Below are positions 11,805 to 20,833 of a stretch of 64,000 bases of DNA, piece by piece. Source of the DNA: Parapedobacter pyrenivorans (lineage in GTDB: Bacteria; Bacteroidota; Bacteroidia; Sphingobacteriales; Sphingobacteriaceae); assembly GCF_014636865.1 (NCBI RefSeq), contig NZ_BMER01000005.1, positions 370,584-434,583 on the forward strand, read 5' to 3'. A model generated the notes under the pieces. The model was not told the origin of the DNA and ran no database searches. It saw nothing but the letters and a program-made list of their open reading frames with translations. Position 1 is the stretch's first letter. Every line of letters begins with the position of its first letter. The position numbers were made by a program, and so were the translations under genes.

Positions 11805-11973
11805 GATTTTAAACAAGTTACCACCGACCTTCATCTTGGTTTTTCAATCGGAATAAATTGATTCAATCGGGATGAGATTTGCCTGATATTTCTTTTTGAA
11901 AGTGGTAGTTCAAGCAGGTTTCATCACTAGTAGAAAGTATTGTTGGTTTGCGAGGCCCTCAGGGCTATTCCTA

Positions 11974-12004
11974 CTGGTCGGTAAATGTACCGGCCAGTTT
12001 TTTT
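11974..12004 (+). terminator. Intrinsic terminator in the leader of the patatin-like gene
   Basis: CTGGTCGGTA (11974-11983) pairs with TACCGGCCAG (11988-11997) through ten pairs, one a G-U wobble that forms only on plus-strand RNA, with an AATG loop and then seven T (11998-12004). This is a strand-specific Rho-independent terminator ending 27 bases before the ATG at 12032 and 290 bases after the last upstream gene. It must end either a small RNA or an attenuated leader. Confidence 0.8.
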
Positions 12005-12031
12005 CAAAATGGCCTTAAAATACGATTACTG

Positions 12032-14353
12032 ATGAGCACAAATAGACGCTATAACTTCTTGCTGAAACTTTATAGCACGGTCAAACTTAATATCTTTTAC
12101 ATCCTATTGTCGTTACTGGTTCCTGTGATTTTATGGAAAGTGCAGGTGGGCCGAGATATTGTTGTAAGCTTAGTCGAAAAAGGAACACCTAATTACCTAA
12201 ACATTCCCTTACTTATTGCATCGTTTTCGCTATTGGCGTTGAGCAATTGGGTGATTCCGGTATTGGCTATCGATATCTGGAAGTTCGTTTTACGACGGAA
12301 CGCCAAGTCACAGTTGTTATATGGCGGGCTAATTGGGCTCTACAATGGAGATCATGTAGCCGGAAAAGGGCAATTCCCGATACGGTATTTCGCAAGCTTG
12401 CCCTGGGTGATTTTTTTATACGTTGCCGTATATTCGCTTTTTCCCAACAGGCCTATAATCGCGATAATTACTATCATCACATTGGTAGCACTTGTGATCT
12501 TGCTGGATTGGGCGTATCGGGGGAAGCGCGTACCCGCCATATTTCAGGGTTTGTGGGACAATGTAGCCGAAACCAAAACGGGCAACCGGACGAAGGCGCT
12601 CCGGTATGTGATAGTCATGGGTATGGTATTCTTACTTTTCCTTGTGGCAATCGGTGTATTAGGAGCTTGGTTGCGCGACAGTACAGATGGGCTCTCCGTG
12701 CTGGTGATCGGAGCAAATTTTGTGGGTATCTTGGCGAATTATGCCTATATGAAATTCGCCGAAAATGTGGACGTGCGTGTTGTTAGCATATCGTATTTCG
12801 TAAGCAAGTACACCCATGTGCTGTCTTTGTCGTTTATGATTATCGTGGCAATACTGTTGCAAACCAGTAATGGACGTGCTTGGCCAGTGGAAATCGGGTT
12901 TTTCTCGCCCATTTTTGTGTTGATCATTGCCATCTCGCTTTACCTTTTTCTAGCCGATGTGTTGGTGACGGCGCAGTTGAATATCACGCGAATTTACAAC
13001 GGAGATCCAGCAAAGTACGATCCGGTAAGCGATGGACATCCGGTGAAGGCAGCATGGATCTGGTATCGGCCTTTGATACGTTTTATTGCATTGGGTTTTG
13101 TGTTTCTGTTTTTTTTCAATTCCATTAATTCGCATCGGATCCGCAAGGATGCCGTGCAATCCGACAAAACCAATACAGCCACGATGAGACCCACGTTGAC
13201 CGCCTATTTCGATAAATGGGCCGAAAGTCGTAAACCAGAAAGAGGTGATACACTGAATGTGTACCTGGTGTCTGGGCAGGGAGGTGGCTCGCGGGCTGCA
13301 GTTTGGTTCTTTATGGCGATGAACTATCTGGATAGTTTAGAAAGCACCCCGTCCACTCGATTCTCGGATCGGGTGTTCTCCATATCCACAGTATCGGGGT
13401 CTACCTCCGGAGCGGCCATGTATCTTGCAGACCGGTACCTGAAGGTAACTCCGCAAGCGGATGCGGTGGTACCTCGCATGAAGACGATTTATGCCAAAAA
13501 CTATCTCAGCAGCTCGTTTTGGGGAGCATTGATAGGTGATGGTTTCGAAGGGTTCAGGCACGAAGTATTTGGCCGCCTGCTTGACTCCAGGCCGGCCTTT
13601 CCGAAGGACAGGAACTTTTACTTTCAACAAGAGGAGGTAAAAGGGTATACCGACGCTACCCCGATGCGGGAGGCCAACGAAATTGACGCGTTTTTCAAAG
13701 GGGATTACCTGGAACCCTATGTGGCCGAAGAGCTGGGGACTATCGGTACGGGAATGCCTCTTTTCTTTATCAATAGTGCAGTAGTGGAAACGGGAGAACG
13801 CGGTGTGTTTGCTCCTGTGGATTTGCCGAGTTTCAGTTTGGGCACTGATCTCTATGGGTTGTTTAAGCGGCATAATACAACCTACGGTATCCCATTGATT
13901 ACCTGCGTAAACCAAAGCCAGGCTTTCCCCGTTATCAATGCATATAACTACCTGGATGGTGCAGGCCGATTGATCGATGGCGGTATCTATGAGAATTCAG
14001 GCACGGCTACCACGTTGGAAATCTATGAAACGTTGCGGCGGCATGTCGAAGCCAAACAGGATACATCCTATGCAGTTAGGTTTATATGCATCAATATCGT
14101 AAATACGAATATGGATGCGGCTAAAGATGCAATCCGCTATCGGCCAGCTTCGGTGCTCAATACGTTAACAGCGGCTTTTCAAAGCCCATTTGGCGGTCAC
14201 GAGCAATTCAGCTATCGGAATATCCTGAGAAGGGTGCTGGCCCCGGATACAGCCTATTCGTTTCCCTTGAATAGGCCTGTGCCGCTGACGCGCATGCTAC
14301 AGCCTGCGGCCATTGATACGATGTATGTAGCCCTACGTAGTATGGGTCACTAA
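12032..14353 (+). CDS. Patatin-like phospholipase domain membrane protein
   Basis: A protein of about 773 residues starting at ATG 12032; the frame opens earlier, but the upstream part would read through the terminator. The N-terminal half has about ten membrane segments (residues ~20-370). The C-terminal half is a patatin-like hydrolase domain: the oxyanion loop is SGQGGGSRA (residues 414-422), the nucleophile elbow is GSTSG (456-460) and the Asp motif is DGG (649-651). Patatin-like enzymes cleave acyl esters of lipids using a Ser-Asp dyad. The elbow is unusual: the central GxSxG position is Thr458, with serines on both sides, so activity is uncertain. It ends convergently, overlapping the PorP/SprF gene by 4 bases. 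Confidence 0.75.
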   Translation: MSTNRRYNFLLKLYSTVKLNIFYILLSLLVPVILWKVQVGRDIVVSLVEKGTPNYLNIPLLIASFSLLALSNWVIPVLAIDIWKFVLRRNAKSQLLYGGLIGLYNGDHVAGKGQFPIRYFASLPWVIFLYVAVYSLFPNRPIIAIITIITLVALVILLDWAYRGKRVPAIFQGLWDNVAETKTGNRTKALRYVIVMGMVFLLFLVAIGVLGAWLRDSTDGLSVLVIGANFVGILANYAYMKFAENVDVRVVSISYFVSKYTHVLSLSFMIIVAILLQTSNGRAWPVEIGFFSPIFVLIIAISLYLFLADVLVTAQLNITRIYNGDPAKYDPVSDGHPVKAAWIWYRPLIRFIALGFVFLFFFNSINSHRIRKDAVQSDKTNTATMRPTLTAYFDKWAESRKPERGDTLNVYLVSGQGGGSRAAVWFFMAMNYLDSLESTPSTRFSDRVFSISTVSGSTSGAAMYLADRYLKVTPQADAVVPRMKTIYAKNYLSSSFWGALIGDGFEGFRHEVFGRLLDSRPAFPKDRNFYFQQEEVKGYTDATPMREANEIDAFFKGDYLEPYVAEELGTIGTGMPLFFINSAVVETGERGVFAPVDLPSFSLGTDLYGLFKRHNTTYGIPLITCVNQSQAFPVINAYNYLDGAGRLIDGGIYENSGTATTLEIYETLRRHVEAKQDTSYAVRFICINIVNTNMDAAKDAIRYRPASVLNTLTAAFQSPFGGHEQFSYRNILRRVLAPDTAYSFPLNRPVPLTRMLQPAAIDTMYVALRSMGH

Positions 14354-15357
14354 AAGTAACATTTAATCCGGTCGAGCGGTCTTCCCAATGTAACGCCCAA
14401 TGTCATTTCATGTGAGCCGTTTTGCAACCCATTTAGGCGGCTTAACATATAATCATACGAATATCCGATACGGAGCCGGTCGGTCGCGAAAATCTGCATG
14501 ACGAAAGAAACCGCGTTCATGCCACTCAGTCGATCACCCGTAAAGCGCCGGTAGTCCCTGCGGAATGCGGAAACTCCGGTGCGGATTCCTCCCCCCAACC
14601 ACAATCGATCGCTGAAGATGGCCATTACATTGATGTCTAGGCTGGAGGGGCCGAGGAAATCATCTTTGTATAATAAGCTGGGGCGTAGTTTCAGCGACTC
14701 GTTGACATCTACCAACATTCCGCCGATAAGATATAAGTGCCGTTTACGCCTGATGCGATCCACGGTGGTTTGGTCCCATCGGAAAAGATTGTCGGCGCTA
14801 GTTCCTGAGAGCAGATCCATGATGGAAGCGCCGGCATACCACCTGGCGTTGTGGTAATAGATTCCGAAACGGATATCCGGCACGAAATTACTGATCTTGC
14901 CTGTGGGAAGCACGTTGTCACCATCGTCGAGCACGGTAATCATTGTGCCATCCAAGCTATATTGTGTCAATCCAGCACCTACACCAAAGCTAAGCCGTTG
15001 GGTGTCCTCGCGGTCCAGACGGAGTCGGTAAGCATAGTTGAGGTAGGCTGAAGTGGCGGTCTGTGGGCCGAGTTGATCGGCCATAATCTGCACACCGCCG
15101 CCATGCCGCCGTGCACCATATAGGTCGAGCAACCCATCTATTGAAAGCAACCCCGTTTGAGGGGCACCCTCCAAATCCACCCATTGGCTCCGGAGGCCAA
15201 GCTGGGCAAACAACTCTTCCTTGTAGCCTGCATATGCGGGATTTACGCTCATCGAGTTAAATACATATTGCGTAAACTGGACGTTTTGCTGGGCCCGTGC
15301 ACCACTCATCATACCCAAACAGAGCAACAGTACCAAGCTTTTGAATATTCTTTTCAT
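14350..15357 (-). CDS. PorP/SprF family type IX secretion membrane protein
   Basis: A 335-residue outer-membrane protein with a signal peptide (cleavage after SGARAQ, about residue 22) and the family opening NVQFTQYVFNSMSVNPAYAGYKE. It continues as a beta-barrel rich in alternating aromatic strands and ends in GVTLGRPLDRIKCYF. PorP/SprF proteins work with T9SS to place cargo bearing type B sorting domains on the cell surface. It is the last gene of a tight four-gene operon (15 bases after the T9SS cargo gene), so it very likely handles that cargo. Confidence 0.92.
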   Translation of the reverse strand: MKRIFKSLVLLLCLGMMSGARAQQNVQFTQYVFNSMSVNPAYAGYKEELFAQLGLRSQWVDLEGAPQTGLLSIDGLLDLYGARRHGGGVQIMADQLGPQTATSAYLNYAYRLRLDREDTQRLSFGVGAGLTQYSLDGTMITVLDDGDNVLPTGKISNFVPDIRFGIYYHNARWYAGASIMDLLSGTSADNLFRWDQTTVDRIRRKRHLYLIGGMLVDVNESLKLRPSLLYKDDFLGPSSLDINVMAIFSDRLWLGGGIRTGVSAFRRDYRRFTGDRLSGMNAVSFVMQIFATDRLRIGYSYDYMLSRLNGLQNGSHEMTLGVTLGRPLDRIKCYF

Positions 15358-15372
15358 GGTAGTCGTGTCTTT

Positions 15373-16935
15373 TTATTGGCGCTTTACCAGCACCCAGCCC
15401 TTACGGATGGTTTCCATCCCATCCTTTTTCAACAACAGTCTATAGTAGTACGTCCCATCACTTACCCCGGCACCGTCCCAATTTTGCTGGTAACTGCGGC
15501 TACGGTATACTTCATTGCCCCAGCGGTTGAAGATAGTCAGATCAGCATTATCATAATTTTCTAATCCCTGGATGACGAACAAGTCGTTTTTGCCGTCACT
15601 ATTGGGTGTAACGGCATTCGGGATGAGCAGTTCGGCCAATCGCACAACCATGCGAACGGTAGCGAAATCTTTCGATCCATTTTCATCGATGATTTCATAC
15701 ACAAACGTATCGTCGCCAACGAATCCCGGGGTGGACCTGTAGGTGATGCTGCCGTCGCTATTGACGAAGACTGATCCATTTTTCGGTTGCACCACCACAC
15801 GCACACGGCCCACAATAATCGGACTCTTGCCCGGCAAGTCATTTTCGAGTACCATTACGGTAAGCCGTCGACCGGACGGGCCCTCACCTTCATCATCTGT
15901 TGCCTGCGGTCCGCGACTGCCTGATATCAATTTCGTCAGCCAGCTGTCATTGGCGGATGCCGTAGCCGCCGTCACCCAATCCCGGGCATGTACACCTTGG
16001 GCAATTCGTTCTGTATTACCCCCCATCCAATTGCCGCTGCCCGCATATTGGACGATTTGCGCACGCTCGTCGACATAGGCGCTGCCATTGGTTACACTAT
16101 TGTGTTGTAGGGTATAGGCCGTATACACGGCTTCATCCGCATAGATATGCCACATGCGATCCACGCCAGCTTCGGCCTCTCGCTCGGTGATCAGCGTATC
16201 GGATGCCACGTAATCCTGCACCCCTACGTAGAGCGTAACAGTGTTGGCCGGAGACAAGGTGGCCGGTGTATAATCGCCCTCGGCGATGCCGACCGGAAAC
16301 GTAAAAGGAAGTGCGGTAGTGTAGGTTTTCGCAATATGGGCTGTTGTGCTATTGCCCGTCACCACCATGCGGTCGCGGCTGTAGCCGAGCAGACTTCCTT
16401 CGGGGCCGATATATAGATCATGGCCGTTGAGCAACAAATCACCGCTGTCTATGGCAAACTTAAATTCCCCGTTGAGGTGTAAGGCCGCTGCTTTTGGGGC
16501 GTGTGCAGGTAATTCGCTGTCATAACCTGGATCGACGAGATCGGCTAGTAAGAGGTTACCGGGGTTTCGTAATTCAATGGCGACACCAATGGGCTGGCCA
16601 TTGTTGCCATCGATTTGCGTAGGACCTGATGGCGCATTTTCGTAAAACGGGTTAGTACCCGGATTGTGGATAATGATTTTGCCCGTACCCGTAAAAGTGG
16701 CCGTGGGCGCGATCCAGATGTTTCGGCTCCAGATTTCGAGCGTGCCGTTAATCTCCCAATGCGCATTCGGGCCGAAATAGCTGGTTTCGGCAAAGCGGAG
16801 TTCTACGGTTTCAGGCGCAATAATAACAGTTGAATTATCGGCAGTGGAGCTGCCGGCGCCGGTTTGGGCGTATAACATATCTTTTGTGAGGAAAGTCACC
16901 AAACAGCAAACGATATATCGATAGGCACGGCTCAT
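15373..16935 (-). CDS. T9SS type B cargo with gliding-motility-associated C-terminal domain
   Basis: A 520-residue secreted protein: a signal peptide up to about residue 24 (MLYAQ), a beta-rich body, an Ig/cadherin-like bacterial domain (about 345-430; the motif VLENDLPG...FVGDDTFVYEI is typical), and a C-terminal gliding-type sorting domain (about 435-520). The latter shows the hallmark IPNAVTPNSDGKNDLFVI, LTIFNRWGNEVYRS, NWDG and GTYYYRLLLKKDG. The sorting domain directs export by T9SS and attachment with a PorP/SprF partner, which is encoded directly downstream. Probably an adhesin or surface-layer component; the ligand is unknown. Confidence 0.92.
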   Translation of the reverse strand: MSRAYRYIVCCLVTFLTKDMLYAQTGAGSSTADNSTVIIAPETVELRFAETSYFGPNAHWEINGTLEIWSRNIWIAPTATFTGTGKIIIHNPGTNPFYENAPSGPTQIDGNNGQPIGVAIELRNPGNLLLADLVDPGYDSELPAHAPKAAALHLNGEFKFAIDSGDLLLNGHDLYIGPEGSLLGYSRDRMVVTGNSTTAHIAKTYTTALPFTFPVGIAEGDYTPATLSPANTVTLYVGVQDYVASDTLITEREAEAGVDRMWHIYADEAVYTAYTLQHNSVTNGSAYVDERAQIVQYAGSGNWMGGNTERIAQGVHARDWVTAATASANDSWLTKLISGSRGPQATDDEGEGPSGRRLTVMVLENDLPGKSPIIVGRVRVVVQPKNGSVFVNSDGSITYRSTPGFVGDDTFVYEIIDENGSKDFATVRMVVRLAELLIPNAVTPNSDGKNDLFVIQGLENYDNADLTIFNRWGNEVYRSRSYQQNWDGAGVSDGTYYYRLLLKKDGMETIRKGWVLVKRQ

Positions 16936-16950
16936 TTTAGTATTCGGTTG

Positions 16951-18417
16951 CTACTGCGATTTTGTTGGCTGCTTCACTTTTGAAGGTAGCATGGGATTAG
17001 TTGTTGCAGGACCTAGTATATAAATGAAATGATCCTCCACTTCGCCGCCGGAAGCAACTGTTGTTGGGGATAGGATTTCATCTTCGTTGACGGCATAACG
17101 TAGCCGTACATAAGTGCTTTTTGCAATGCGGTCTTCGGGAATTATCCATGTGAGGGTTGCAGAGTTGGTGCCAGCTGACGCGACTGCTTTGGCGCGCTCG
17201 CTTTCCTCAAATTCCCCGTTCCAATTGAAATCGATCCATCCAACGATGTGCGCATCTGCTAAACCATTGTAAGGGATGTCGATGCTTAACATTTTTCCCG
17301 GTTTGTACGTGGCGTTATATGACCAACGTTTGTGCTCTACTGGCCAAGCGTCCTCCTCGGTTGATGGTCCGTCCGGATTATTGTCGTCGCCGAGTGCATC
17401 TTCGCTAAATTGGGGGCCATTGTCTGCATCGGGTCCCGTGGTGCCAAGGAAGTTGGATGGGGATTGTATCAAAGCACCTTCCTCATAATCTTCGGTGTTT
17501 AGATCGATAATGTCATCTACGTCAATCCCATCGTCAGTAAGAATTGTGCCCTCAAAAAGGTGTAAAGGCGCGCCATAACTTTCCGGGGCATCACCGCTAT
17601 CTGCATTTATGGTTATCAGACCTAGCACAAGGGCAGTTATACCAGTGCCTTTTAATGTGACGTCGAAAGATACTTCGTAATTATCCGAAAATGTACCATA
17701 GGCTGTTCCGTCAAAAGTTAAGAATGATACTGCGGCTGTGTTTCTGTCGTTTCCTTTGACAAAGCGGATATTTTGTTTGATAATCCCGGCTTCATTAACG
17801 TTAGATTTGAGGATTTGGTAAGGTCCCTCATCTATATTTTTCTGTAATTCTACGATTGTCCATTTACCGTCAGCGGTCACATGAAAATATTCGCCATCGC
17901 CATCCAAGGATTCACCATCACCAAGAACCAAACCAGCAAGTCTTACCGGTTGACCATCTAATGTCGCCTCGCAAGTGACCTTAAAACTCACTGTTCCCCC
18001 GTAAACTCCGTTTTGGATTCCATTGACAAGCTGATTGTCGGTTCCTGTTCCACCAATATTGTACATGTCGTCCATTGAGTCGCCGCTGTAATTGCCTGGT
18101 GCGTAGCTGCTTATCGAACCCGATAAGTTGCTTATCATAGCTTGAATACATAAATATTTTCCCCCGCCAATATCGATTGAAGCATATGAAGCGTCCCCAT
18201 TTTCCAATGGTATGTTATGTCGTCCGTATGGATAGTCGACATCGTTATTAGAGCCCCAGGTCAACCAAAGCACTTGATCTTTATAGGAACTTGTGCCCCC
18301 TTGGGCATAAGCAGCCGTGGTAATTTTTCCAGGGAAGCACGGTTGCGCCTTCAACCCCGGCAAGACGGTTAAAAAGCAGCAGAATCCGATGGAAATTCTA
18401 AGGTATAAATGCCACAT
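16951..18417 (-). CDS. Surface protein with CshA/GEVED-type domains
   Basis: A 488-residue secreted protein with a signal peptide up to about residue 24 (GLKAQ). The N-terminal half resembles CshA-type surface-fibril domains (WLTWG, the Gly/Ser/Tyr-rich strands around SSYAPGNYSGDSMDDMYNIGG, VSFKVTCEATLDGQPVRL). The C-terminal half is a GEVED-like domain: GDAPESYGAPLH, GDDNNPDGPSTEEDAWP, IDFNWNGEFEESERA, YVRLRYAVNE and GEVEDHFIYI. It has no T9SS sorting domain of its own, so it may be held by the T9SS cargo encoded next. It is the second gene of the surface operon, 6 bases after the repeat protein. Binding function unknown. Confidence 0.78.
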   Translation of the reverse strand: MWHLYLRISIGFCCFLTVLPGLKAQPCFPGKITTAAYAQGGTSSYKDQVLWLTWGSNNDVDYPYGRHNIPLENGDASYASIDIGGGKYLCIQAMISNLSGSISSYAPGNYSGDSMDDMYNIGGTGTDNQLVNGIQNGVYGGTVSFKVTCEATLDGQPVRLAGLVLGDGESLDGDGEYFHVTADGKWTIVELQKNIDEGPYQILKSNVNEAGIIKQNIRFVKGNDRNTAAVSFLTFDGTAYGTFSDNYEVSFDVTLKGTGITALVLGLITINADSGDAPESYGAPLHLFEGTILTDDGIDVDDIIDLNTEDYEEGALIQSPSNFLGTTGPDADNGPQFSEDALGDDNNPDGPSTEEDAWPVEHKRWSYNATYKPGKMLSIDIPYNGLADAHIVGWIDFNWNGEFEESERAKAVASAGTNSATLTWIIPEDRIAKSTYVRLRYAVNEDEILSPTTVASGGEVEDHFIYILGPATTNPMLPSKVKQPTKSQ

Positions 18418-18423
18418 TAATTT

Positions 18424-20418
18424 TTAAGGTTTTACAGCAAACACAATATTCATGAATGAACCAATGGTAACGTCGGCATTGGTTTTAACCGCATATGTCA
18501 ATATACCAAGATCGCTTACGTTTACATTCTCAAAAACATTTTCGTCAAACCAAGTAACATGATAATCTAACTCGACGCGTGGTAGTACAGGAAGAGGTAT
18601 TGTTGCTCCCGGATTCGAAACCCTAGGGGTGCCAAATTGACCTTGATACTGCTCATACAAATCTATCGTGCCAAAAGTTGCCGGATTTTCTAGTTGGTCC
18701 GGCGCTGTTGGGATAATGATGGAAGGCATGTAGAAGAATTTCGGCATCGTGGCCTTTAATGCTTTGAGCTCGCCGGTTGTGGCATCGGCCACGACGATTT
18801 TGTCGTCTGATGCTCTTGAATATTCCAAGCCGGTGATGGCGAGGGTATTTGTGAAATCAGTTTGAATGGCGGTAGGCTCGGTGAGTGTTCCGCCAAGTTT
18901 TACGTGTCCTTCTGTAGCTGGGTTTACTGTTTCAATATGTAATCCGTTTGAAGCTTCGGTCAGGTATGCGCTCAGGTCGACGCTCTGGGTGCCCCCGTCC
19001 TCCAGGGTGAGGGTCAGGGTGTTGCCGGTGATGGAGAAGTCTGTGACCTGCTGGTCGTCGGTGTTGTCAAGGTATGGACTCAGGTCGACCGTTCCGCCGT
19101 CTTCCAGGGTCAGGGTATTGCCAGCGAGGGATATCGCCTGGTCATCGGTATCGTCAAGGTATGCGCTCAGGTCGACGCTCTGGGTGCCCCCGTCCTCCAG
19201 GGTGAGGGTCAGGGTGTTGCCGGTGATGGAGAAGTCTGTGACCTGCTGGTCGTCGGTGTTGTCAAGGTATGGACTCAGGTCGACCGTTCCGCCGTCTTCC
19301 AGGGTCAGGGTATTGCCAGCGAGGGATATCGCCTGGTCATCGGTATCGTCAAGGTATGCGCTCAGGTCGACGCTCTGGGTGCCCCCGTCCTCGTCCTGGT
19401 AAGTGAGCAGGTGGGTAGTGACGTTGTAATCCATGACGGTCAGGGTCTCCTCCTCGGCCACGATGGCCGCAAGGTCAATCCGTTCCTCAAGTCCGAGGGT
19501 GTTTGTGTAGACCAGCTGGCTGTTGTCGGTGTCGTATTCCAGCCCCGTGTTGTTCAGTGGCAGGGGACTCGGTGTTCCCTCCTCGTCGGTGTAATTGAGC
19601 GTATTCGTCGCGTTATCGTATGCCAGCCGCCCAACATCAAGGTTGAAAGCGTGCGTAGCACTATTTTCATCGATATAAGTAAGTACGTGCGTATCGGAAT
19701 TGTAGGACAGTGCGGTTACCGTCTCTAACTGATCGACAACATCTGAGAGATTGAATTCTTGAAGCTGACCTAATGTGTTGACGTATCTCAATATGCCTAG
19801 CGAAGGGTCGTACGAAAGTGAAGTATTATTCAGTGGGATATTCGTGGTAGTACCGTCCTCATTGGTGTAAGCAAGCACATTAGTTTGGTCATCAAAAGCT
19901 AAAGTTCCGACATTCAAATCCAAAACGTGCGTTAAACCACTCTCGTCTTGGTAGGTCAGCTGATGGCCAGACGCATCGTAACCCAGCACCGTCACTGTCT
20001 CCACCGCTTGCACTACTTCTTCCAAATTGATGACCTGTGTGTCGCCTTTTACGTCTATATAAGTCAGCTCATACGTATCTGGATTGTAGTTAATCGGTGT
20101 GACGCTTCCTCCGGCAACCAGTATCCAGCGGTTACCATTGTTGTAGTAGATGCCGGGCACCACATCGTTACCAGTGGCCGTATTGTATACCATCATGCCG
20201 GCACGATGCTGCGACAACGGAGCAGCATCATCCGTGCGGATTAATTGCACACGGGCATGCAGCAATCCTTTGTTTGTACTTTCCAACTCCAGCAATGCGT
20301 CTTTAGTGGGTAATACCGCGCCGCGGGATGTATGGTCTTTTATCTTCTGCTGGGCAAGGGCAGGAGTAAAATAGATGGAAATAAATACGGGTAATAGTAG
20401 TAATAGTTTGTTTTTCAT
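18424..20418 (-). CDS. Repetitive secreted fibre-like protein
   Basis: A protein of about 664 residues starting at ATG 20418, which begins a signal peptide (MKNKLLLLLPVF...PALAQ); an upstream in-frame start at 20469 would precede it. After a domain common in Bacteroidota surface proteins (GIYYNNGNRWI), two imperfect repeats of about 95 residues and part of a third carry HxLTYxDE and PLNNT motifs. These are followed by 65-residue units of the type LSAYLDDTDDQ / LEDGGT, two of which are identical at DNA level. The C-terminal 130 residues are unique. Such regular Asp/Thr-rich repeats suit an extended beta-fibre, possibly calcium binding. It is the first gene of the surface operon with GEVED, T9SS cargo and PorP/SprF genes. 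Confidence 0.75.
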   Translation of the reverse strand: MKNKLLLLLPVFISIYFTPALAQQKIKDHTSRGAVLPTKDALLELESTNKGLLHARVQLIRTDDAAPLSQHRAGMMVYNTATGNDVVPGIYYNNGNRWILVAGGSVTPINYNPDTYELTYIDVKGDTQVINLEEVVQAVETVTVLGYDASGHQLTYQDESGLTHVLDLNVGTLAFDDQTNVLAYTNEDGTTTNIPLNNTSLSYDPSLGILRYVNTLGQLQEFNLSDVVDQLETVTALSYNSDTHVLTYIDENSATHAFNLDVGRLAYDNATNTLNYTDEEGTPSPLPLNNTGLEYDTDNSQLVYTNTLGLEERIDLAAIVAEEETLTVMDYNVTTHLLTYQDEDGGTQSVDLSAYLDDTDDQAISLAGNTLTLEDGGTVDLSPYLDNTDDQQVTDFSITGNTLTLTLEDGGTQSVDLSAYLDDTDDQAISLAGNTLTLEDGGTVDLSPYLDNTDDQQVTDFSITGNTLTLTLEDGGTQSVDLSAYLTEASNGLHIETVNPATEGHVKLGGTLTEPTAIQTDFTNTLAITGLEYSRASDDKIVVADATTGELKALKATMPKFFYMPSIIIPTAPDQLENPATFGTIDLYEQYQGQFGTPRVSNPGATIPLPVLPRVELDYHVTWFDENVFENVNVSDLGILTYAVKTNADVTIGSFMNIVFAVKP
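18963..19392. repeat. Perfect 195-bp tandem repeat (2.2 copies) inside the fibre gene
   Basis: Bases 18966-19160 and 19161-19355 are identical by eye, and the match continues for 37 bases into a third partial copy (19356-19392). The period is 195 bp, exactly 65 codons, so copy number can change without breaking the frame. Each unit also contains two shorter related halves. Confidence 0.9.
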
Positions 20419-20833
20419 AGGCAACGTTGACTCAGTTTTTGGGAGTAGATTTAGCCTTAGAGCAACCATATCCTTACCTCAAAAGGCGGATATTAGTATC
20501 TGTGTTGTAATCGTTAGGAATGTCGATGCTTCGTTAAGCTTCTGTGGTAGCTATTCTATGTTTCATAAGCAAATGGTAGATAAGTTGATAAAGATGCAAA
20601 GTTTTTAGAAATATGGCAATAAACAAAATGTTAATTTTTTTGGCCTCTGGTAAAACTTCGACCTCTTCACAGGAATCGATACCTGGATAGTGTTGGTTTC
20701 TCAAAATTTATCAAATGGGAAAGTTACATTGCCTACGTCCGAAAGTTTGGTTAACTTCGCAGGGGAATGCTGTATTACTGGTAAGGACATATACCTTGGT
20801 ATAATTCAGTATCTTTTATCCAATGGTATACGC

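Follow-up and report, generated by a model that had tools for sequence, protein, structure and literature searches.

A four-gene operon of Parapedobacter pyrenivorans combines a repeat fibre and an exchangeable tip protein with a type B cargo and a PorP/SprF carrier

Introduction

How might two secreted proteins without a sorting domain be linked to the type IX secretion system (T9SS)? The question is raised by a four-gene operon in the 5.93 Mb genome of Parapedobacter pyrenivorans (assembly GCF_014636865.1, contig NZ_BMER01000005.1, positions 370,584 to 434,583). This stretch of 64,000 nucleotides is called the window, and all coordinates without a locus number refer to it. The operon encodes a secreted repeat fibre (P0001), a tip protein with CshA_NR2 and GEVED domains (P0002), a cargo with a type B C-terminal sorting domain (CTD; P0003) and a protein of the PorP/SprF family (P0004). 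The available text of the literature cited here presents type B T9SS cargos as single adhesins, each with a carrier that is sometimes shared.

We lean towards an explanation in which the cargo is a platform on its own carrier and bears a fibre with exchangeable tips, the whole being linked to the gliding track. The two families suggest that P0003 is exported via its type B CTD and stays on P0004, its carrier in the outer membrane. The fibre P0001 would attach to this platform. The tip P0002 would be joined to the fibre by its C-terminal tail (the NP tail), with the conserved domain at the C-terminus of the fibre (FIBC) as the most likely docking site. Other tips use the same NP tail, which would make the heads exchangeable. 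The two CTD-less proteins would be exported together with the cargo. Cys333 of P0004 may form a disulfide with Cys310 of GldK on the T9SS/gliding track, which would make the assembly movable, and the six closest paralogs of P0004 would be tied to peptidoglycan via PorE.

A broader statement is put forward more tentatively: the operon may represent a modular T9SS appendage with an assembly code of NP tail and FIBC, by which proteins lacking a sorting domain would both arrive and remain at the surface on a fibre carried by the type B platform, and its carrier may be switchable from PorE and a PRFF ending to the track and a Cys tail, a switch that would have occurred in two lineages.

Gene order and its conservation

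All four open reading frames (ORFs) were confirmed on the minus strand, with intergenic gaps of 6, 15 and 15 bp. P0001 (18424..20418) has 664 amino acids (aa), counted from an ATG that is followed by a signal peptide; an alternative ATG lies upstream at 20469. P0002 (16951..18417) has 488 aa and P0003 (15373..16935) has 520 aa. The last 15-bp gap separates the P0003 gene from the adjoining PorP/SprF gene (P0004, 14350..15357, 335 aa). Judged by eye, each of the four proteins starts with a Sec-type signal peptide and none has a lipobox. The sorting domain of P0003 (15385..15627) scored above cut-off for CHU_C (91.8 bits, cut-off 27) and TIGR04131 (51.1 bits, cut-off 35), as did P0004 for TIGR03519 (237.2 bits, cut-off 90.55) and PF11751 PorP_SprF (227.4 bits, cut-off 22.3). 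In P0001 and P0002, no T9SS sorting domain was found in Pfam or NCBIfam at E ≤ 1.

A preliminary description of the locus had named a same-strand operon of four genes with gaps of 6–15 bases, in which the first two proteins have no sorting domain, the third has a type B CTD and the fourth is a PorP/SprF protein. The coordinates and the Pfam/NCBIfam matches agree with this. The description had also supposed a defined assembly, in which cargo and PorP anchor the other two proteins, and had set down beforehand that an unconserved gene order in relatives or separate destinations of the first two proteins would count against it. The order is conserved, and separate destinations were not indicated, as P0001 and P0002 both have a signal peptide, no lipobox (by eye) and no CTD. 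Judging from the sequences, anchoring through cargo and PorP would still be the best reading of the locus. The second protein is a replaceable tip and not a fixed subunit. The unusual repeats of the fibre are present, but they are its variable part; the constant elements are FIBC and the tail of the second protein, which the preliminary description had not seen.

We compared 55 distinct cargo loci, where distinct means differing over the last 120 cargo residues, so that relatives are still counted. A fibre gene and an NP-tailed gene (pattern NP-x-L/I/M) were found with the cargo at 41 loci, a fibre alone at three (L067, L173, L176), an NP-tailed gene alone at one and neither at ten. Six of these ten loci run off the contig, and the locus with the lone NP-tailed gene lies at a contig end. 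Entry via FIBC (tail pattern NP-x-L/I) yielded 25 further genes outside the named loci, of which 20 were followed by an NP-tailed gene and 20 by a cargo. Under this entry the tails of L174 and L177 were near misses, and L172, L173 and L176 had none.

Matches to P0001 of some length were present in nine of nine genomes of the genus, and relatives of P0002 in five of nine (source genome included). The order fibre, CshA/GEVED protein, cargo and PorP recurred in L033 (with an assembly gap in the fibre) and, with PorE added, in L035 and L036. A lectin-like protein, a label that stands for Pfam matches below the curated cut-off, took the place of the CshA/GEVED protein in L037/L038 (two contigs, joined by inference). 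L034 and L043 had two fibre genes before a lectin-like protein, cargo and PorP, and L034 a further CshA/GEVED gene upstream. A 2090-aa protein with PKD and DUF11 domains stood between fibre and cargo in L042/L048, followed by PorP and PorE. L044/L049 had a 1394-aa fibre-like gene and proteins of 2484 aa and 167 aa, then cargo, PorP and PorE. In L040 and L046 the tip gene was missing and the locus reduced.

Could the operon be a giant adhesin broken up by gene fission, with its pieces as remnants? P0002 has one paralog (46% identity, L012), in which the CshA/GEVED part forms the N-terminus of a long adhesin; a long stalk and a type B CTD follow, with assembly gaps in between. Moreover, L050 of another species contains an uninterrupted 2343-aa fusion, with a weakly P0002-like N-terminus (23.6% identity) and an end consisting of Big_9 and a type B CTD (47%). 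Against this, every piece here has a start and (by eye) a signal peptide of its own, three genera have the split form with a tip, and the cargo N-terminal domains of 27 other sequences are 37–78% identical to that of the window. We consider fission very improbable.

Second sets of fibre, CshA/GEVED protein and cargo follow the first operon in L071 (18798-20351) and L077 (17142-18698), with no PorP directly after them; they may share the carrier of their neighbour.

Tip proteins and the NP tail

In P0002, CshA_NR2 spans residues 47–267 (17617..18279, minus strand, E 3e-41) and GEVED residues 391–465 (17023..17247, minus strand, E 5.3e-15). The last 18 residues (16954..17007, minus strand) form the NP tail, which is common to second proteins of other make-up. 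Proteins with differing bodies thus have like ends: ATTNPMLPSKVKQ (CshA/GEVED), CAVITNPMLPSK and CLIISNPMLRSKAKK (both lectin-like) and CQRRIITNPILINQARQ (PKD/DUF11).

Of 33 genes lying immediately upstream of a cargo, 24 carried the NP tail, compared with 2 of the 339 other ORFs of at least 150 aa; because the sequences are related, a p-value for these counts is not a true probability. One of these two ORFs is itself a tip gene belonging to this type of operon. Across 48 genes, the Asn and Pro codons within the tail show free variation: Asn is encoded by AAT in 26 and by AAC in 22, and all four Pro codons are used. Hence it is the protein, not the DNA, that is conserved, and codon variation disfavours the tail as a DNA signal for the next gene. 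Two NP-tailed tips occur in one operon in L181 and L183.

Tail and FIBC are linked. Every complete cargo locus that has the tail also has FIBC; FIBC is likewise found where the tail is absent. Because the tail never stands without FIBC in complete cargo loci, and L201 has both without a cargo, we place the putative dock for the tail on the fibre and not on the cargo.

This linkage also bears on the view that the three proteins are only regulated together and form no complex, with fibre and tip periplasmic or released and only the cargo displayed. That P0001 and P0002 have no sorting domain would fit it. On the other side stand the FIBC–NP tail linkage itself, the presence of the tail on proteins of different make-up, and L050, where a P0002-like part is fused to a type B CTD. 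Mere shared regulation strikes us as rather improbable.

At six loci (L064-L066, L072, L076, L189), an extra protein of 168–177 aa was seen between fibre and tip, ending in EQPS or EQPN except in L189. In L057, L070, L074 and L078, tip and FIBC are replaced by a protein of 2340–2922 aa that ends in WNCIQR-x-CNE; its counterpart in L059 has 375 aa and ends in CNP. A short protein (166–188 aa, ending in W-x-YWK) accompanies the large one at these four loci and also in L059. The WNCIQR-x-CNE protein and the W-x-YWK protein are an alternative partner set.

Judged by title or abstract, neither the NP tail nor FIBC nor the PRFF/Cys tail rule given below is described in any of the matches listed from the open-licence literature.

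Fibre and FIBC

The repeat units of the fibre differ between species. Constant parts across loci are FIBC, the N-terminal domain of the cargo and the NP tail (..NPML..K) of the second protein. The N-terminal module of P0001 (residues 1–105 including the signal peptide; 20104..20418, minus strand) matches other fibre genes of relatives by profile. The stalk contains an exact in-frame 195-bp tandem repeat in 2.2 copies (18962..19392, minus strand). Repeat segments of P0001 exceed the Pfam cut-offs for DUF903 and DUF2442, which we read as short beta-repeat matches. FIBC (18427..18774, minus strand) ends in SFMNIVFAVK. No Pfam or NCBIfam family matched this region, and searches of PDB and BFVD with its structure model (pLDDT 75.7; all models are of single domains) gave nothing at E ≤ 0.001.

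Within the family, 35 of 301 genomes had FIBC, from 4 of 25 genera; partial matches in the genomes G198 and G228 were left out of the loci. The class scan found it in 6 of 396 genomes, source genome included. A module confined to Sphingobacteriaceae was therefore rejected, although 80 PorP regions of other Bacteroidota had given no FIBC or cargo N-domain match. Outside the family, L202 and L203 had fibre, type B protein and PorP and no tip; L201 lacked a cargo and had a short FIBC fibre with an NP-tailed lectin-like protein after it; L204 had a fibre and an 802-aa protein; and L205 had only a weak FIBC match inside a long ORF.

FIBC as a hidden CTD is not favoured, as hhalign against the cargo alignment (CTD included) gave a probability of 0.7%. 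It is retained only within a rival view, that FIBC, the NP tail or both are export signals. Fibre and tip would then leave the cell independently, through the T9SS or by another route, and the cargo would be an independent adhesin that shares the operon. Like the CTDs here, FIBC has a hydrophobic strand and a lysine at its end (by eye). The pair of fibre and tip without a cargo in L201 also fits this, as do L170 and L177, where an opposite-strand gene comes after the fibre and the next gene. FIBC has no profile similarity to the type B CTD, however, and mere sharing of an operon would hardly maintain fibre and NP-tailed gene with the cargo at 41 of 55 loci. We think independent export unlikely.

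Cargo

In P0003, the sorting domain is preceded by a Big_9 Ig-like domain (15649..15909, minus strand) and an N-terminal domain (residues 25–341; 15913..16863, minus strand). The model of the latter is confident (pLDDT 90.6, pTM 0.90) and has a beta-helix-like front part and a beta-sandwich. Foldseek found no PDB match for it at E ≤ 0.001. With VIA-align 2, residues ~147–316 resembled ZU5/FIIND/GAIN-like folds (best 7jn7_B, Z 8.9, root-mean-square deviation 3.2, 121 aligned residues) and the front part resembled beta-helix proteins (Z about 6–7). The scores are middling, and this likeness may be only a common arrangement.

A scan with residues 25–341 recovered 31 loci: Parapedobacter 8, Pedobacter 4, Sphingobacterium 16, other Sphingobacteriaceae 1 and Bacteroidetes metagenome-assembled genomes 2. 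In the class, the profile matched 45 of 396 genomes, mostly partially and to the second half. In three regions (L206-L208) from two of these 45 genomes, no PorP, FIBC or NP tail was seen.

Carrier tail and PorE

P0004 ends in ..RIKCYF. Its single Cys (Cys333 of 335; 14359..14361, minus strand) is the third residue from the end, and there is no PR(F/Y)F ending. No PorE gene lies beside it; the downstream gene is on the opposite strand and is not PorE. Six close paralogs (61–65% identity) in the source genome all end in SPRFF. In L011-L014, the carrier is flanked by a PorE-like TPR/OmpA protein on one side and a type B CTD protein on the other, the latter ranging from 547 aa (truncated at the contig end) to 3903 aa. 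In L015 and L016, which are short contigs, the start of a PorE gene is visible before the contig end.

Our first set comprised 46 PorPs. Ten had a Cys in the last 8 residues, and PorE was adjacent in none of them. Among the other 36, PorE was adjacent in 26, its start was seen at the contig end in two and it was absent in eight (L020-L024, L047, L075, L077). For a phylum sample, 61 genomes were searched with PF11751 and 25 had matches; 80 regions from 13 genomes (matches from about 133 bits, source genome excluded) gave 74 scored PorPs. PorE was found with 2 of 27 PorPs with a Cys in the last 8 residues vs 28 of 47 without, and with 25 of 26 PR(F/Y)F endings vs 5 of 48 other endings. Exceptions in this sample included L110 and L148 (other endings with PorE) and L146 (PRYF without PorE). 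Both sets and later loci together gave 133 PorPs, after exclusion of PorPs whose terminal region contained unread bases, of duplicates (compared over the last 150 residues) and of those with less than 1200 bases downstream and no PorE seen. PorE accompanied 2 of 37 with Cys and 65 of 96 without.

In a tree of 50 PorPs of the Sphingobacteriaceae set, a Cys without PorE occurred in two lineages, a Parapedobacter clade of seven (support 100) and L069 of Sphingobacterium SGG-5. L069 stands beside L067 of the same strain (support 86), within clades of support 98 and 97. The (K/R)CYF ending is found in both lineages, including all seven Parapedobacter loci. A single clade for the eight entries was rejected (approximately unbiased test, p-AU 9.5e-7), and two changes were still needed; the long-branched L017, L063 and L174 were left out of this test, L069 is itself long-branched, and the group was defined only once the tree was known.

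Published results give this pattern a possible meaning. Cys326 of SprF is reported to be disulfide-linked to Cys343 of GldK, which is conserved in PorK of P. gingivalis as Cys356 in an Arg-Gly-Cys-Phe motif (PMC12635249). GldK of the source genome matches TIGR03525 with 590 bits (cut-off 350), and its Cys310 aligns with PorK Cys356. A PorE–PorP–PG1035 complex has been reported in P. gingivalis (PMC9143113). In F. johnsoniae, dynamic type B substrates were described outside PorE operons and a static one within (PMC12618676). Taking these data together with the Cys tail and the missing PorE gene, a track-linked rather than a peptidoglycan-anchored assembly is predicted for the window. P0004 would work like an SprF-like track-linked carrier, and is not counted as a member, since it lacks the Cys-X-Cys pair.

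Several results weigh against the favoured explanation. Fibre and tip are missing at ten cargo loci, and L067, L173 and L176 have a fibre and no NP-tailed gene, which means that the cargo is not strictly tied to the two. Given L201 without a cargo and the interrupted order in L170 and L177, the platform role is not universal. Profile comparison linked FIBC to no part of the cargo alignment, not even the CTD. The GldJ candidate of the source genome reached 430.2 bits, below the TIGR03524 cut-off of 458.2. SprF has a Cys-X-Cys tail pair and P0004 a single Cys; SprF with Cys326 alone was reported to be bonded in a minority of molecules, with gliding lost (PMC12635249). A Cys in the last 8 residues stands with PorE in L141 and L163, a Cys in the last 12 with PorE in L133, and in L132 a Cys occurs with PorE upstream. 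Six PRxF carriers have no PorE. In phylogenetically independent pairs, the Cys/PorE association was not significant (median p 0.25–0.5, few contrasts), and we therefore report it as a pattern with two lineages and not as proved.

The results on the single Cys and on independent pairs would also fit a static assembly. The Cys tail would then be unbonded, and P0004 would either borrow a distant PorE or need no periplasmic partner. PorE genes exist at the paralogous loci of the same genome, and a third class of PorPs there (L020-L023) has neither Cys nor PorE. A static carrier explains less readily why (K/R)CYF is kept at all seven loci of the Parapedobacter clade and is found again in Sphingobacterium, in a lineage of its own, and the partner cysteine of GldK is present. 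We regard a static assembly as plausible, without expecting it. In the available text of a Parapedobacter paper (PMC7500135), the word gliding applies only to a CRISPR match.

Relation to known systems

One of the closest known systems is SprB–SprF of F. johnsoniae, a gliding adhesin and its carrier. Alike are a type B CTD protein and a PorP/SprF dedicated to it, with no PorE gene in the operon (PMC12618676), and a cysteine in the C-terminal tail of the carrier (PMC12635249). Unlike SprB, which is one very long adhesin of about 200 nm (PMC12635249), the operon has a 520-aa platform and two CTD-less partners. The tails of the two carriers differ too, with a single Cys in P0004 vs Cys-X-Cys in SprF. 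The sprCDBF genes of F. johnsoniae reportedly form a four-gene operon as well, in work attributed to Rhodes (2011).

A PorP likewise binds a type B cargo in PG1035–PorP–PorE of P. gingivalis and in the PorE operons of F. johnsoniae (PMC9143113, PMC12618676). The six closest paralogous loci of the source genome look like members of this class, whereas the window locus has no PorE gene and its carrier tail is CYF instead of PRFF.

With CshA-type fibrillar adhesins, P0002 shares NR2 followed by GEVED, in the same order. It differs from them in having (at 488 aa) neither stalk nor anchor, only the NP tail, with CHU_C on the next gene. NR2 was reported to be invariably partnered with GEVED (PMC10952558). 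The full-length adhesin library of that study, as its available text describes it, was selected for anchored proteins, and anchorless forms like P0002 would be left out.

What is new is the set of exchangeable tips with a common tail, the tie of FIBC to this tail, and the replacement of the carrier's PorE partner by a cysteine tail. If the favoured explanation is true, composite fibres whose heads can be swapped are among the structures built by the T9SS, and no more than a short tail is needed for a CTD-less protein to be added. The rule for carrier tails (PRFF where PorE is present, Cys where it is missing) would aid the prediction, from sequence, of static versus track-driven surface adhesins, and could be tested directly by the methods described in the two 2025 papers (PMC12635249, PMC12618676).

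Other loci and neighbouring genes

L022 (5440-15315) of the source genome is another triad of fibre, cargo and PorP. Its 397-aa fibre has YadA head repeats, Peptidase_S74 and a coiled-coil-like end, and the genes for a type B CTD protein (2567 aa) and a PorP lie downstream of it. In L025 (6206-10873) and L047 (7480-11975), from two species, a collagen-repeat fibre, a 694-aa type B CTD protein and a PorP stand in the same order. The L025 fibre also matches CBM5/12, and that of L047 is 76% identical to it. The third PorP class, which includes L047 in addition to L020-L023, has no Cys in the C-terminal tail, no PRFF and no PorE neighbour.

Next to the operon of the window, a plus-strand gene (11948-14353) overlaps the end of the PorP gene by 4 bp. 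It encodes a long membrane protein with a patatin-like stretch of the GxSxG type, as judged by eye. Genes that resemble it by eye also adjoin the operon in L034 and L040.

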